Shown here in pieces: positions 1-4,408 of a DNA stretch of 64,000 nt. Every line of letters starts with the position of its first letter. Positions within the stretch are counted from its first letter, which is position 1. The stretch covers positions 124,001-188,000 of the forward strand of contig NZ_FOFI01000002.1 of assembly GCF_900110605.1 (NCBI RefSeq), read 5' to 3'. This stretch comes from Epilithonimonas lactis. GTDB taxonomy: Bacteria; Bacteroidota; Bacteroidia; Flavobacteriales; Weeksellaceae. Made by a program: the position numbers and the translations under genes. The notes under the pieces were generated by a model that was given only the letters and a program-made list of their open reading frames with translations, ran no database searches and was not told where the DNA came from.

Positions 1-246
1 CAATTCAATATCTATGTCGGCGATAAGGAAGACCAATCGGAAAGCCTGAACCACAGCGGAATGATTGCCCTCGTTGACCAAGAAGGAAATCTCCGTTCCA
101 GATTTGATGAGAACAACAGCCCGATTTTATACTACTCTGGCTTGAATTATGAAGACCCAGAAGGTAAGACAACTTCGCTCACAGGAAAATACCATCCCGA
201 CCGTGAGAAGTTGATAGAAGACATTCGAAAATTATTAAAACAATAA
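1..246 (+). CDS. SCO1/SenC family copper-binding protein, C-terminal fragment
   Basis: The reading frame is open from the first base of the window, so only the last 81 residues of the gene are present. They match the C-terminal part of SCO proteins, thioredoxin-fold proteins outside the cytoplasm that deliver copper to the CuA site of cytochrome oxidase or act as thiol oxidoreductases. The segment N-H-S followed by A-L-V-D-Q-E-G (fragment residues 17-27) is the SCO copper-ligand histidine and the beta-hairpin after it. The Cys-x-x-x-Cys part lies outside the window. The protein ends in a helix (IEDIRKLLK), as is usual for the family. The gene is followed 76 bp later by a secreted superoxide dismutase and then by copper-linked genes, which supports a copper or redox role. 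An internal ATG at base 61 is not the start, because the frame continues upstream with family-like sequence. Confidence 0.8.
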   Translation, partial: QFNIYVGDKEDQSESLNHSGMIALVDQEGNLRSRFDENNSPILYYSGLNYEDPEGKTTSLTGKYHPDREKLIEDIRKLLKQ

Positions 247-322
247 AATGCTGATGGCGGTTGGCTTTTTGCTACTAGCTTTTTGCATTTAAAAATTTAA
301 ATATTAATCTAAATCCAATATT

Positions 323-991
323 ATGAAAATCAAGAAATTATTTCTCGCAAGTGCGCTTTCTGTAGCCACTTTTGCGACGGCACAATTTAAACAAACACCT
401 TTGCCTTACGCCTACAATGCTTTGGAAGGTTCGATTGACGCAGAGACAATGGAAATCCACTATTCCAAGCACGCCGCGACCTACGTTTCCAATCTGAACA
501 AGGCCGTCGCCGGAACACCATTGGAAAAAGAAAGCATCACCAAAATCCTTTCCCACATTTCCAAAGAAAGTCCAGCCGTGAGAAACAACGCCGGTGGACA
601 CTACAACCACGAATTGTTCTGGACTGTTCTAACACCTGAGAAAAACACGCAACCATCAGCAAAGTTGACGAAAGCCATCAACGAATCTTTCGGAAGTTTG
701 GACGCTTTGAAAGAAAAATTGAGCAAAGCTGGCGCAGACCGTTTCGGTTCTGGTTGGGCTTGGTTGGTCGTGACGGCTGACAAAAAACTGGCAGTCACTT
801 CCAGCGGAAATCAGGACAATCCATTGATGGATATTGCCGAGGTCAAAGGAACGCCAATCTTGGGCATCGATGTTTGGGAACACGCGTATTACCTGAAATA
901 TCAGAACAAAAGAGCCGATTATTTGACCGCTTTCTGGAACGTGACCAACTGGAAAGAAGTGAGCAAACGCTACGAAGAAGCCACAAAATAA
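323..991 (+). CDS. secreted superoxide dismutase, Mn/Fe family
   Basis: This 222-residue protein disproportionates superoxide to oxygen and hydrogen peroxide. Residues 1-20 form a signal peptide ending ATA|Q, so the enzyme works in the periplasm or outside the cell rather than in the cytoplasm. The four metal ligands are visible: H46 (in MEIH), H96 (in [10 protein letters not shown]), D183 and H187 (in DVWEH). The combination of a Gly in the GGH motif and Q164 in GNQD resembles the manganese-type arrangement, but metal choice cannot be settled from sequence. The start is the ATG directly before the basic, hydrophobic leader. It lies between a SCO gene and a Cys-rich exported protein. Hydrogen peroxide made here could feed the peroxidase-type di-haem protein encoded at 2382-3458; this link is inference. 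Confidence 0.93.
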
Positions 992-998
992 GCCCTCC

Positions 999-1364
999 TT
1001 GAAATTAATTTGCAACATATTCCTCATCCTTTATCTGGTGTGCAAACCCGCATTTCCACTGGCGGAATATGTTGTAAATTATAATCAAATCCAAGTGCTC
1101 TGCGTCAACAAAGCGCGACCAGAACTCAATTGCAACGGAAAATGCTACCTCGGTAAAGAACTCGCAAAATCAACCGAATCCGATAATTCACCGCTTTCCA
1201 AAGGCAAAAATCAAGTCCAAAAAGTATTGGATTTCTACATTCCGACTGAGATTTTCAAAGCCTCAATCGAACACAATTTTTCCCTCCTAAACCTGACTTT
1301 CACATACAAAACAGGTTACACCTTCCTCTTTCTGAGCCACATTTTCAGACCACCAATTTTTTAG
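999..1364 (+). CDS. small exported Cys-rich protein with CNGKC motif, function unknown
   Basis: This 121-residue protein starts at a TTG codon 7 bases after the superoxide dismutase stop, so the two are probably co-transcribed. Residues 1-22 are a hydrophobic signal or anchor segment. The centre holds C35-V-N-K, then C45-N-G-K-C49-Y-L, three closely placed cysteines that could bind metal or form a disulfide. A second hydrophobic stretch lies near the C-terminus (about residues 100-115), and the protein ends FRPPIF. I recall similar small proteins with a CxNK...CNGKCxL pattern beside copper genes of Bacteroidota, but I know of no assigned function. No ATG start is available upstream in frame, so the TTG is the best choice. 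A dispersed hairpin repeat follows immediately. Confidence 0.62.
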   Translation: MKLICNIFLILYLVCKPAFPLAEYVVNYNQIQVLCVNKARPELNCNGKCYLGKELAKSTESDNSPLSKGKNQVQKVLDFYIPTEIFKASIEHNFSLLNLTFTYKTGYTFLFLSHIFRPPIF

Positions 1365-1383
1365 TTGAACATATCAATCATTT

Positions 1384-1527
1384 GGGCGATTCCCTCTCCA
1401 AAGCTAAGGCCTTAGCTCGGGTCGGGCTGTCCGCTACTATCTTTTTGTCTTGCCACATGAGTCTATAAAACGACGTTTGGTCAAAAGACAAAAAGGATAT
1501 CCGCTATCATCCCTATCGCGGGATTCG
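1384..1527. repeat. intergenic hairpin repeat, family A copy 1
   Basis: This non-coding stretch holds nested inverted repeats. A perfect 16-base palindrome AGCTAAGGCCTTAGCT lies at 1402-1417. A second stem pairs 1439-1451 (ATCTTTTTGTCTT) with 1485-1498 (AAGACAAAAAGGAT). The same plan, with a stem of the type ATCTTTTTTG/CAAAAAAGGAT flanked by CCGCT-like words, occurs at 40921-41040. Such elements resemble dispersed intergenic repeats I recall from flavobacterial genomes. It sits between the Cys-rich gene and the mbnP-like gene and could act as a terminator or mRNA-stabilising hairpin. Confidence 0.65.
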
Positions 1528-1561
1528 GTATAAAATCAACGTTTCAACTAAAAAATCAACA

Positions 1562-2389
1562 ATGAAAATTTACAAATTTTTATCACTAATTCTTATTGCC
1601 TTTACCTTAATCACAATCTCATCCTGTTCCAACAACGAAGATGACGACATTCCAAACACAGAACCCGGAAATCTCCAACTCAAATTCGAAAACGGATTCA
1701 ACAATCTTGGAAACATCGTCCTGAATCAAACCACGCAAACTTCATCCAGCGGACAAAAACACCAATTTTCTACTTTGAAATATGTCATCAGCAACATTTC
1801 CCTCATCGATGAGAACGGCAACGAGTTCAAATACCATTACAACAATCCTGACAAAGGCGCCTTCATCATCAATCAAGCCGATGCAAAAGGCGGAATCGTT
1901 TATGCTAACCTCACAGAAATCCCAAAAGGAAACTACAGGAAAATCAAACTCGGATTGGGAATCAGCCCAACGGCATATTTGATTGGACAAGACGGACAAG
2001 GGATTTTCTGGGAAAAAGCCAAGCAGGAAGGAATGGCTTGGTCGTGGTCAGCCGGCTACATTTTCGCAAAGCTCGAAGGCAAATATGGAACAACTTCCGC
2101 CTACACAGAATTTATGAACCACACAGGAAATATGGGCGACACAACCATCAACGGAACCGCAGACCTTTACCGAGAAGTTGTTTTGGATTTGCCAACAACC
2201 GCGAGAGTCAGCAAAGACATCACGCCATCGATTCATATTCTAGCAGATTTCAATCAATATCTAAGTGGACAAACTGCATTGATATTAAACCAAACCAACC
2301 AAATGGCGATGGGAAGCAGTCCGCATCTGGTGAGCGTGAGCAACAACTTAATCCAAATGTTCAAAGTTGACCACGTTCATAATGATTAA
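1562..2389 (+). CDS. mbnP: MbnP family copper-associated lipoprotein
   Basis: This 275-residue protein resembles the MbnP family, periplasmic proteins first described with methanobactin (copper chelator) operons but widespread elsewhere. In characterised members a partner di-haem enzyme (MbnH) oxidises a conserved tryptophan to kynurenine. Residues 1-22 form a lipoprotein signal with lipobox ISSC (C22), followed by an acidic linker. The beta-rich body has the family pattern with LKYVISNISL and the aromatic segment M158-A-W160-S-W162-S-A-G-Y166, the likely site of the modified tryptophan. The C-terminus carries VDHVHND, possible metal-binding histidines. Its end overlaps the start of the mbnH-like gene by 8 bases (ATGATTAA), so translation is probably coupled. 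There is no methanobactin precursor gene nearby, so the role here is probably copper handling or a periplasmic redox process. Confidence 0.78.
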   Translation: MKIYKFLSLILIAFTLITISSCSNNEDDDIPNTEPGNLQLKFENGFNNLGNIVLNQTTQTSSSGQKHQFSTLKYVISNISLIDENGNEFKYHYNNPDKGAFIINQADAKGGIVYANLTEIPKGNYRKIKLGLGISPTAYLIGQDGQGIFWEKAKQEGMAWSWSAGYIFAKLEGKYGTTSAYTEFMNHTGNMGDTTINGTADLYREVVLDLPTTARVSKDITPSIHILADFNQYLSGQTALILNQTNQMAMGSSPHLVSVSNNLIQMFKVDHVHND

Positions 2390-3458
2390 TCCATTTCAAA
2401 AATTCCAGAGAGGCCGATTCCGTTCTCTTTGGATTTTCCTTGTTTTCATTTCAGGAATTCTAACATCTTGTTCCGACGAAATTGAAGGCGAAGTTTTCGA
2501 GGAAGACAAAGCTTACAACCTAGAAATTCCAAATTATTTTCCGGCTTTGGCTTTTGACATTGAGAAAAATCCAGTCACAGTCAACGGCGTTGCGTTGGGA
2601 AAGAAATTATTTTATGAAGGAAAATTATCCCGAAACAATACGATTTCCTGTGGATTTTGTCACATTCAGGAATATGCTTTCACGCACCACGGACATCCAG
2701 TCAGTCACGGCATCGATGACAAATTGGGAATGCGAAATGCGCCCGCAATTCAAAATATGGCCTGGCTGAAAAATTACACTTGGGACGGCGTGAGTCATAA
2801 TCTGGATGAGCGTTCGTTGGTTCCCATCACGACAGATTTTGAAATGGACAGCTCGATTCCGGAAGTGATTTCGAAGTTAAGTGCAGATGCGAATTATAAA
2901 AAAATGTTTAAATCGGCTTTTGGCGACGACCAAATCAATGGCGAAAGAATTCTGAAAGCTTTGTCGCAATTTATGGTCACAATGGTTTCTGCAGATTCAA
3001 AATACGACCAGGTCAAAAATGGAAAAGCGAGTTTTACGAATGAAGAATCTCAGGGAAAAACTCTGTTCGAAAATAAATGTTCGAGTTGTCATTCAGGCGA
3101 ATTATTTACCGATGAAAGTTACCGAAATACAGGAATGTACTACAATTCGCAATACGATGACCGCGGGAGATATCGCGTGACTTTGGATTGGAATGATAAT
3201 ATGAAATTCCGTGTTCCAAGTTTGAGAAATGTAGAATTGACCGCGCCTTATATGCACGACGGCAGATTCTACTCTTTGGAAGCTGTTCTGAATTTCTATT
3301 CCGACAATGTGGAAAATCAACCAAACCTCGACCCTATTTTAAAACAAAACAATCACATCGGAATTGCAATGACAAACTTGGAAAAACAGTATATCATCGC
3401 TTTCTTGAAAACCTTGACCGACCAGAATTTCATCAACAACAAAAAATTTGCAGAATAA
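2382..3458 (+). CDS. mbnH: MbnH-like di-haem cytochrome c peroxidase family lipoprotein
   Basis: This 358-residue protein belongs to the bacterial di-haem peroxidase/MauG superfamily. Two c-type haem motifs are visible: C90-GF-C93-H94 and C233-SS-C236-H237. The N-terminus is a lipoprotein signal with lipobox LTSC (C30). Classical members reduce hydrogen peroxide; MauG and MbnH members instead use high-valent haem to oxidise a partner protein. Its pairing with an MbnP-like gene, with an 8-base overlap, favours the MbnH role. The start is the ATG at 2382; a TTG 15 bases upstream would give a longer frame deep inside mbnP and without benefit to the signal peptide. The stop TAA overlaps the ATG of the next gene by one base. 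Whether it acts as peroxidase or as tryptophan oxidase cannot be read from sequence alone. Confidence 0.83.
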   Translation: MINPFQKFQRGRFRSLWIFLVFISGILTSCSDEIEGEVFEEDKAYNLEIPNYFPALAFDIEKNPVTVNGVALGKKLFYEGKLSRNNTISCGFCHIQEYAFTHHGHPVSHGIDDKLGMRNAPAIQNMAWLKNYTWDGVSHNLDERSLVPITTDFEMDSSIPEVISKLSADANYKKMFKSAFGDDQINGERILKALSQFMVTMVSADSKYDQVKNGKASFTNEESQGKTLFENKCSSCHSGELFTDESYRNTGMYYNSQYDDRGRYRVTLDWNDNMKFRVPSLRNVELTAPYMHDGRFYSLEAVLNFYSDNVENQPNLDPILKQNNHIGIAMTNLEKQYIIAFLKTLTDQNFINNKKFAE

Positions 3459-4408
3459 TGAAGAAGCTAATTTTAATTTTATTTTCAATCTTTAATATTT
3501 TAATTTCAGCAATTGAGAAAGACAGTCTATACATTCCGAAATATGATAATCAGAATCTTTTGAAAACTCAGGAATTCTTTTGTGACGCTTGCGGTTGCGG
3601 TGCAGGAAATGGTTCGTCTGGCTTCGAATCTTTGTTGAATCCGCAATTCATTGGCATCAAATATTTTTCGCAACATTACAAAGCGAAGGAAAATCTCTTC
3701 ACAAATGAGTTGACGCAAGACCAATATTTCAACACGATTCAGATTTGGGGAAAGATTCCGATTACGGAAAAGCTGAGTGTTTATGGAAGTTTGCCATTTC
3801 AGTTTCACGAGAAGAAGACTTTGCAAGGCGACATTAGAATCAGCGGAATCGGCGATGCGAGTTTGATGGGAATTTATCAAATCCTTGATTCTAAAAATAC
3901 GTTTCATCAACTCAATGGCGGATTTGGTGTGAAAATTCCGATTGGAAAATTTGATGAGAGAGGAATTTCGGGTGTAAATCCAAGTTTTCAATTGGGAACG
4001 GGAAGTTGGGATTATCAATTGGCTCTTAATTATAAATTTCAGGAAAATCTTTTCGCATTGCTCATCAATACAGATTATACCATTAAAACTGAGAACAAGA
4101 AACATTACCAATTTGGGAATCAATGGAATTATGCAATGACAGGATTTCAGCGGATTTGGAGAAATGAGAACAGTATTATTTCAGGAAAGTTGGGATTGCA
4201 AGGCGAAGTTTACGATTGGAACAAACAGTTTGGCGAAGTGATGCCGAGAACTGCCGGAAGTGCACTTTATGGAAAAATCGGTTTCGAAGCTTCGTATAAA
4301 AAATGGAGCGTCGGCAGTGAAGTAATGTTGCCAGCTTACACCAATTTGGCAAGTGGTGATATTGAGGCTAAATCTAGGTTTGGATTGTTTGTGAACTTTG
4401 GAATTTGA
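3458..4408 (+). CDS. outer membrane beta-barrel protein with CDACGCG motif
   Basis: This 316-residue protein has a signal peptide (residues 1-18) and alternating hydrophobic strands through to a C-terminal aromatic strand (RFGLFVNFGI), typical of an outer membrane barrel of the transporter type. Just after the signal lies C42-DA-C45-G-C47-G, a compact Cys cluster that looks like a metal- or haem-related site facing the periplasm. Its ATG overlaps the mbnH stop by one base (TAATG), so it forms one translational unit with mbnP and mbnH. A reasonable inference is a channel or docking barrel for the copper/redox pair. I do not know an experimentally studied homologue. The gene is the last of the plus-strand locus; 145 bp separate it from deoD. 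Confidence 0.68.
   Translation: MKKLILILFSIFNILISAIEKDSLYIPKYDNQNLLKTQEFFCDACGCGAGNGSSGFESLLNPQFIGIKYFSQHYKAKENLFTNELTQDQYFNTIQIWGKIPITEKLSVYGSLPFQFHEKKTLQGDIRISGIGDASLMGIYQILDSKNTFHQLNGGFGVKIPIGKFDERGISGVNPSFQLGTGSWDYQLALNYKFQENLFALLINTDYTIKTENKKHYQFGNQWNYAMTGFQRIWRNENSIISGKLGLQGEVYDWNKQFGEVMPRTAGSALYGKIGFEASYKKWSVGSEVMLPAYTNLASGDIEAKSRFGLFVNFGI

Follow-up and report, generated by a model that had tools for sequence, protein, structure and literature searches.

Copper uptake and sensing in Bacteroidota are little known, and the stretch of DNA analyzed here from Epilithonimonas lactis, a bacterium of the Chryseobacterium group (contig NZ_FOFI01000002.1, positions 124,001 to 188,000; 64,000 nucleotides (nt), hereafter the window), opens inside a probable copper operon that raises two questions: what do MbnP and MbnH, known from methanobactin operons, do at this locus, and what is the role of the two short open reading frames (ORFs) with a CNGKC motif, denoted CNG1 and CNG2, that accompany them? 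When the contig is followed for a further 12 kb (L003 coordinates), the gene order is CNG1-YHS-SCO-SOD-CNG2-MbnP-MbnH-barrel. We interpret the locus as a two-module copper-acquisition operon in which the CNG ORFs are leaders controlling the modules, a reading to which, taken as a whole, we assign a probability of roughly 0.5; the MbnP-MbnH pair is known elsewhere, and the copper-reading CNG switches are the new proposal. The features of the locus are:

L003:10852-11220, outside the window and ahead of YHS: CNG1, the second CNGKC ORF
L003:11295-11570, outside the window and ahead of SCO: YHS lipoprotein (Pfam YHS, 56 bits)
L003:11551-12246 (window 1..246, the C-terminal 81 codons), plus strand: SCO, a SCO1/SenC protein (Pfam SCO1-SenC, 106 bits)
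323..991, plus strand: Fe/Mn superoxide dismutase, SOD (Sod_Fe_N, 94 bits; Sod_Fe_C, 139 bits; signal peptide judged by eye)
999..1364, plus strand: CNG2, a leader-like CNGKC ORF of 121 amino acids (TTG start, C-x9-CNGKC, C-terminal FRPPIF)
1356..1369, plus strand: 5' arm of a stem (final two CNG2 codons, stop codon and five bases)
1416..1535, minus strand: Flavo-1 RNA motif between CNG2 and MbnP, in antisense orientation (RF01705; score 52.1 bits)
1543..1556, plus strand: 3' arm of this stem, separated by 5 nt from the MbnP start codon
1562..2389, plus strand: MbnP lipoprotein (PF20243, 120 bits against a cut-off of 27; lipobox C22, W160/W162, H187)
2382..3458, plus strand: MbnH, a dihaem MauG-type lipoprotein (CCP_MauG, 173 bits; two CxxCH)
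3458..4408, plus strand: putative outer-membrane barrel (Phenol_MetA_deg, 32 bits; N-terminal CDxCGC motif, CDACGC)

The MbnH start was set at the ATG at 2382 in place of the TTG given in the ORF list. The sequence-only reading had described six consecutive genes, the last three overlapping, and had named MbnP and MbnH among them; the positions and the overlaps (8 nt between MbnP and MbnH, 1 nt between MbnH and the barrel) are borne out, with SCO present in the window by its last 81 codons only, and profile searches (PF20243, CCP_MauG) support both identities. No methanobactin synthesis gene is found among the ORFs of the window and the added stretch, in which no search aimed at such a gene was made.

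What, then, are the CNG ORFs? At E 1, CNG2 has no counterpart in Pfam or NCBIfam, and 17 members of the group, scanned with a threshold of E 10, yielded no sensible Pfam family. The proteins share a design: a hydrophobic start leads to a cysteine with CxG(K)C behind it, and a free linker then connects to a C-terminus resembling IF[RHK]PPxx. All 110 members of a set picked by a full-length profile contain CxxxC and carry PP within the last 14 residues, 1-9 residues from the end (exactly 2 in 70 of the 110), preceded by R, H or K in 98; the control counts for such a C-terminal PP are 14 among 1158 other genes and 10 among 252 other short ORFs. Because this set had been chosen by the full-length profile, an N-terminal control was run, in which a model built on residues 1-75 of 49 members found 61 more, all ending in PP. 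In a second set of 149 members, picked with PP required (named loci), TTG stands at the fitted start of 91. The median gap behind CNG is 126 nt to MbnP, 137 to YHS, 205 to a YtkA-like gene and 53 to the barrel; other genes within the modules mostly abut, and the SCO-SOD gap is 107 nt. No same-strand gene lies less than 60 nt upstream of 77 of 106 CNG ORFs. When rules resembling those for the leader CutF were applied to 109 members, 107 were shorter than 150 amino acids, 109 had PP in the last 15 residues, 108 had a same-strand gene within 1000 nt and 106 had an exported N-terminus, as judged by a hydrophobicity proxy and not by SignalP. The family is placed before MbnP-MbnH-barrel, before a YtkA-like lipoprotein with a receptor-like gene, before TonB receptors with PepSY_TM and before YHS-SCO: eight large genes behind or near CNG at other loci are TonB receptors by Pfam (L202 and L216 also have PepSY_TM), and in L217 the gene after CNG is DJ-1/PfpI. 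The family has 1168 matched proteins, and the 120 listed are named 'hypothetical' or 'uncharacterized', save one with a kinase label.

Cysteine-rich exported proteins among copper genes could also be copper carriers, their three cysteines holding Cu(I) and passing it among SCO, the barrel and MbnP, and the PP being structural. We regard this as a possible, although less probable, explanation: the hydrophobic N-terminus, the three invariant cysteines and the copper or metal-transport genes next door all agree with it, whereas the PP near the end in 110 of 110, the free linker, the long gap to the next gene and the arrangement in cis in 108 of 109 fit the leader reading better. On this analysis, CNG2 is more probably a leader ORF than a copper carrier.

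The gap between CNG2 and MbnP suggests how such a leader might act. A repeat search revealed a perfect 14-bp inverted repeat (1356-1369 with 1543-1556), the 5' arm of which runs across the CNG2 stop codon from just behind the second of the two Pro codons, and the 3' arm of which is set off from the MbnP ATG by 5 nt. The arm pair has an energy of -13.8 kcal/mol (3 of 2000 shuffles as good), and the minimum-energy fold of the gap includes the stem, enclosing the Flavo-1 motif. Across 76 loci, a locus's own arms pair at a mean of -11.4 kcal/mol versus -9.1 for swapped arms (0 of 5000 permutations as low), and 53 of the 76 CNG2-MbnP pairs pass the 5 percent mark of shuffles, compared with -4.8 versus -4.9 kcal/mol and 0 of 62 for the control pair SCO-SOD. 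The anchor is present in 66 of the 76 loci, and 40 of these show at most one mismatch in 13 positions. Both-side exchanges, e.g., A-T to G-C (10 loci at position 9), occur at positions 9, 10, 11 and 12 (counted from 0), which are paired in 58, 52, 46 and 44 of the 66; part of the relatives have a stem with compensatory changes. The stem appears to be tied to CNG2, because L059 has the same stem before a lipoprotein gene in the place of MbnP. In a wider comparison, in which starts are less certain, z falls below -2 in 25 of 98 CNG pairs versus 24 of 426 other pairs. A conserved RNA fold of the entire CNG gap was also sought and dropped, the gappy alignment giving an energy of 0 and only the two-arm comparison showing a signal. 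The gap sequence partly matches 15 other places of the genome, and Flavo-1 is described, in the part of the Flavobacterium transcriptome paper used here, as occurring on either strand without a clear role.

Taken together, these features suggest a switch. The cysteine motif of the leader would meet or miss copper during synthesis, and translation would stall on the [RHK]PP codons when two residues are left to the stop. In module 2, where the stem would by default hide the MbnP start, a ribosome halted there would occupy the 5' arm and thereby turn MbnP on. Given the usual ribosome footprint, a pause with the Pro codons (1350-1355) in the P and A sites would place some 10 nt of the 5' arm under the ribosome and leave the MbnP start free. 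For CruR of Bordetella pertussis, a pause with Pro codons in the P and A sites has been reported (PMC12992588, in the part cited). By analogy with CruR and with the copper-repressed CorA/MopE, copper bound at the cysteine motif would release the ribosome and shut the module down; the reverse sign of the response is possible, as in CutF.

Several observations weigh against this model. The stem is weak (above -6 kcal/mol) in 9 of the 76 loci, including the near relatives L077, L078 and L105; relatedness of the loci inflates the stem statistics; and swapped arms also pair well, so that part of the signal is common AT-rich sequence, with one arm overlapping codons. A CNG1-YHS stem of -9 kcal/mol or lower is present in 12 of 71 loci, nearly all from the window's own clade, and z is below -2 in only 1 of 15 phylum MbnP loci, i.e., a phylum-wide stem was not found. 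A same-strand gene lies less than 60 nt upstream of 29 of the 106 CNG ORFs (a proxy for internal position), SOD in 15 of these cases, and CNG2 itself is an internal gene because it lies 7 nt behind SOD. The [RHK]PP C-terminus is unlike the proven RAPP/RGPP arrest type. None of the 17 CNG members scanned matches DUF2946 (PF11162), the family of CruR, at E 10, and hhalign against five DUF2946-type proteins gave Prob 0.1; a kinship between the two families was accordingly rejected. Of 296 phylum genomes, 5 have a DUF2946 match that reaches the cut-off and 8 have one at E 0.001, and the seven proteins fetched all end in RAPP or RGPP. On the side of the leader reading, in a single case (G484, locus L243), DUF2946 stands directly before MbnP-MbnH-YtkA-like-receptor, where CNG sits elsewhere. 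Weighing these points, we put at about even the chance that CNGKC is a Bacteroidota family of metal-reading leaders, of the CruR/DUF2946 design with no detected kinship, that precedes metal-handling genes at the outer membrane and periplasm, with the [RHK]PP pause opening a stem over the next start in this lineage and two such switches in series here.

How stable is this arrangement? In the best 80 of 325 related loci, the eight genes are complete and in the same order in 72 (65+4+3). Both the copper context of the sequence-only reading and a conserved gene order are supported. The eight exceptions are three Elizabethkingia without YHS-SCO-SOD at the locus, L087 and L089, in which CNG2 is more like CNG1, L113 (CNG2 to barrel only), L141 (without SOD) and L128, a short contig that stops before the barrel. 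The nearest named loci, from Epilithonimonas and Chryseobacterium sp. FH1, have MbnP matches at 92-95 percent; MbnP matches are present in 141 of 246 family genomes (5 of them weak), Pfam MbnP matches in 78 of the 296 phylum genomes and CNG matches in 110 of the latter. A survey of 40 selected family and 40 selected phylum MbnP loci, with neighbors counted on the same strand within 6.5 kb, points to modules. MbnH adjoins MbnP in 39/40 and 39/40, respectively; CNG is near in 38/40 and 23/40, the barrel in 30/40 and 15/40, always together with CNG, and SOD in 18/40 and 0/40. A receptor-like gene is near in 6/40 and 6/40, with a YtkA-like lipoprotein alongside in 5 and 6, and neither barrel nor receptor in 5/40 and 19/40. 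(Labels of the profiles made here are 'TBDT' and 'YtkL'; for two of the receptor-like members, those of L057 and L204, Pfam gives no match.) Barrel matches at E<=1e-20, counted by hand, occur in 26 of the 296 phylum genomes (48 at 1e-3), 24 near MbnP and 25 near CNG. L057, L059 and L063 retain CNG1-YHS-SCO-SOD-CNG2, followed by a lipoprotein, a receptor-like gene, divergent MbnP and MbnH, and no barrel, which is a cassette exchange behind a retained leader. In L198 to L202, a barrel-family gene directly follows CNG with no MbnP-MbnH pair adjoining, perhaps as an independent two-gene unit, with a low barrel score in L201 and L202 and an 18-bit MbnP-like ORF beside CNG in L198. A possible operon boundary is marked by a terminator-like stem at L003:10743-10766, such stems being no commoner than in shuffles (5 vs 5.9); a promoter before CNG1 was sought and set aside, with a single TANNTTTG site at L003:10829 and the motif rarer over the stretch than in shuffles (14 vs 25).

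Turning to the function of module 2, the WxW motif (W160, W162), proposed earlier as the site of modification, is supported as a motif: together with H187 it is invariant in 19 of 19 aligned MbnP rows. Predicted models of MbnP, compared with solved structures, match the MbnP fold (five models were made, two of them poor, with predicted local distance difference test (pLDDT) values of 64 and 58). MbnH, which adjoins MbnP and combines two CxxCH with a CCP_MauG domain, has as its best match among solved proteins 6e1c, called 'Di-heme enzyme' in the structure table and taken by us to be MbnH of Methylosinus trichosporium. Manesis in 2021 reportedly found the first Trp of the MbnP WxW motif converted to kynurenine (Kyn), and we infer the same for W160 in this species, where MbnH, a MauG-type dihaem enzyme, would carry out the conversion using peroxide. 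The alternative, in which MbnH acts as an ordinary peroxidase and leaves the MbnP WxW unmodified here, seems improbable. Both proteins do fall below their NCBIfam equivalog cut-offs (MbnP at 32.6 of 140 bits for TIGR04052, MbnH at 234.5 of 362.85 bits for TIGR04039, yet its best family), a further point against our interpretation, and CCP_MauG includes ordinary peroxidases; the invariant WxW and H187, the MbnP fold match, 6e1c as the top solved match of MbnH and the MbnP-MbnH pairing in 78 of 80 loci argue for the modification. The MbnP score implies a divergent branch, not the TIGR04052 equivalog. The genome has a single MbnP and a second dihaem CCP_MauG gene (L004:6176-7342; 40 percent identity with MbnH across 260 residues) that adjoins SusC/SusD-like genes, as judged by eye; elsewhere in the phylum, a second MbnH-like dihaem gene lies near MbnP-MbnH in L160, L173, L187 and L188.

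The sequence-only reading had placed both proteins in the periplasm, which is doubtful because their N-termini tend to be acidic and to resemble an export signal. After the lipid Cys, MbnH reads SDEIE, near the SDDFE signal proposed for Flavobacterium johnsoniae lipoproteins (PMC5080379, in the part cited). At least 2 acidic residues at +2 to +7 are present in 53 of 66 MbnP and 41 of 60 MbnH, compared with 2 of 22 YHS and 34 of 109 other lipoprotein-like ORFs, under a lipobox rule devised here that misplaces the Cys in some MbnH and was passed by 66 of 83 MbnP and 60 of 86 MbnH, the rest being excluded; in the window's MbnP, the acidic run begins only at +5. These N-termini hint that MbnP and MbnH are located at the cell surface, as is CorA. 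The modified MbnP, probably on the cell surface, would then hold copper for inward passage with the CDxCGC barrel, so that module 2 (CNG2-MbnP-MbnH-barrel) would collect copper, and module 1 (CNG1-YHS-SCO-SOD) would handle copper and oxidants in the periplasm.

Does SOD (closest solved relatives, 5a9g and 6gsb) supply the peroxide? It had been proposed to feed H2O2 to a periplasmic MbnH, with the modified MbnP supplying SCO or the barrel. With orthologs defined by E below 1e-109 in a listing over the 246 family genomes, SOD is present in 128. MbnP lies no more than 6 kb from it in 97 of these, is more distant or on a different contig in 12 (at about 7 kb in two of them) and is absent from 19. 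The linkage test left out five weak MbnP matches (E 6e-7 to 7e-4; one is in G236, counted as MbnP-less), leaving 136 MbnP genomes, 27 of which lack the SOD ortholog. The proximity in 97 of 128 genomes and the association of SOD and MbnP over the family (odds ratio 19) favor the proposal, and H2O2 diffuses, so that a loose effect is possible. However, the association follows genus: within g20 (Chryseobacterium), SOD is present in 97 of 99 genomes, 15 of these 97 being without MbnP, and does not follow MbnP. SOD belongs to the SCO module, because it still stands behind YHS-SCO in 18 of the 19 MbnP-less genomes (17 of 18 fetched, plus G082, locus L206); in L233, it stands alone. SOD as a dedicated peroxide source for MbnH was rejected on linkage (19/128 without MbnP; 27/136 without SOD), and the proposal as a whole is unlikely.

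A literature search, with most subscription journals outside its range, found neither this operon nor the CNGKC family treated in a paper. In the part cited of a 2025 survey of RAPP/RGPP leader ORFs (PMC12992588), Bacteroidota are among the groups without such leaders for copper genes; if CNG are leaders with another end motif, this gap closes and the family of 1168 matched proteins gains a testable function. The operon would also extend kynurenine copper sites beyond methanotrophs, to a setting in Bacteroidota.

Among known systems, MbnP and MbnH of Methylosinus trichosporium (7l6g; 6e1c) share the MbnP fold, the GMAWxWxAG motif and the adjoining dihaem protein with the present pair, but are distant in sequence (7l6g is matched by the MbnP profile at no better than E 0.042), and the neighbors here are CNG, the barrel and the SCO module, with no mbn gene among the ORFs, none having been specifically searched for. 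MbnP-MbnH pairs occur far beyond methanobactin producers (PMC3621798, in the part cited). CorA/CorB and MopE/SACCP of methanotrophs, as described in the portion cited of PMC3912023, couple a copper-repressed surface copper protein containing kynurenine with a co-transcribed dihaem peroxidase, features that the present MbnP and MbnH would share; no CorA/MopE entry is among the MbnP sequence-profile or solved-structure matches listed. CruR (DUF2946), with its CXXC, RAPP, long gap and Rho-dependent control, is the first gene of copper operons that include TonB receptors, PepSY proteins and MbnPH-like genes (PMC9426467, in the part cited). CNG resembles it in heading copper operons, in similar neighbors and in the long gap behind, and differs in lacking a DUF2946 match, where CruR has RAPP, CXXC and Rho-dependent control. 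CutF of Rhodobacter capsulatus is a short exported ORF with a signal peptide, CxxxC and a Pro-rich end that acts in cis from upstream, a stem masking the next start; Bacteroidota make up 40 percent (normalized) of a rule-based CutF-like list, so that the CNG proteins may be in it, and MbnP is not mentioned in the text (PMC9973294). Compared by features, CutF and CNG share the short ORF, the CxxxC, the Pro-rich C-terminus, the position directly upstream and the stem over the next start, and differ in the next gene, a multicopper oxidase for CutF and MbnP or YHS for CNG.
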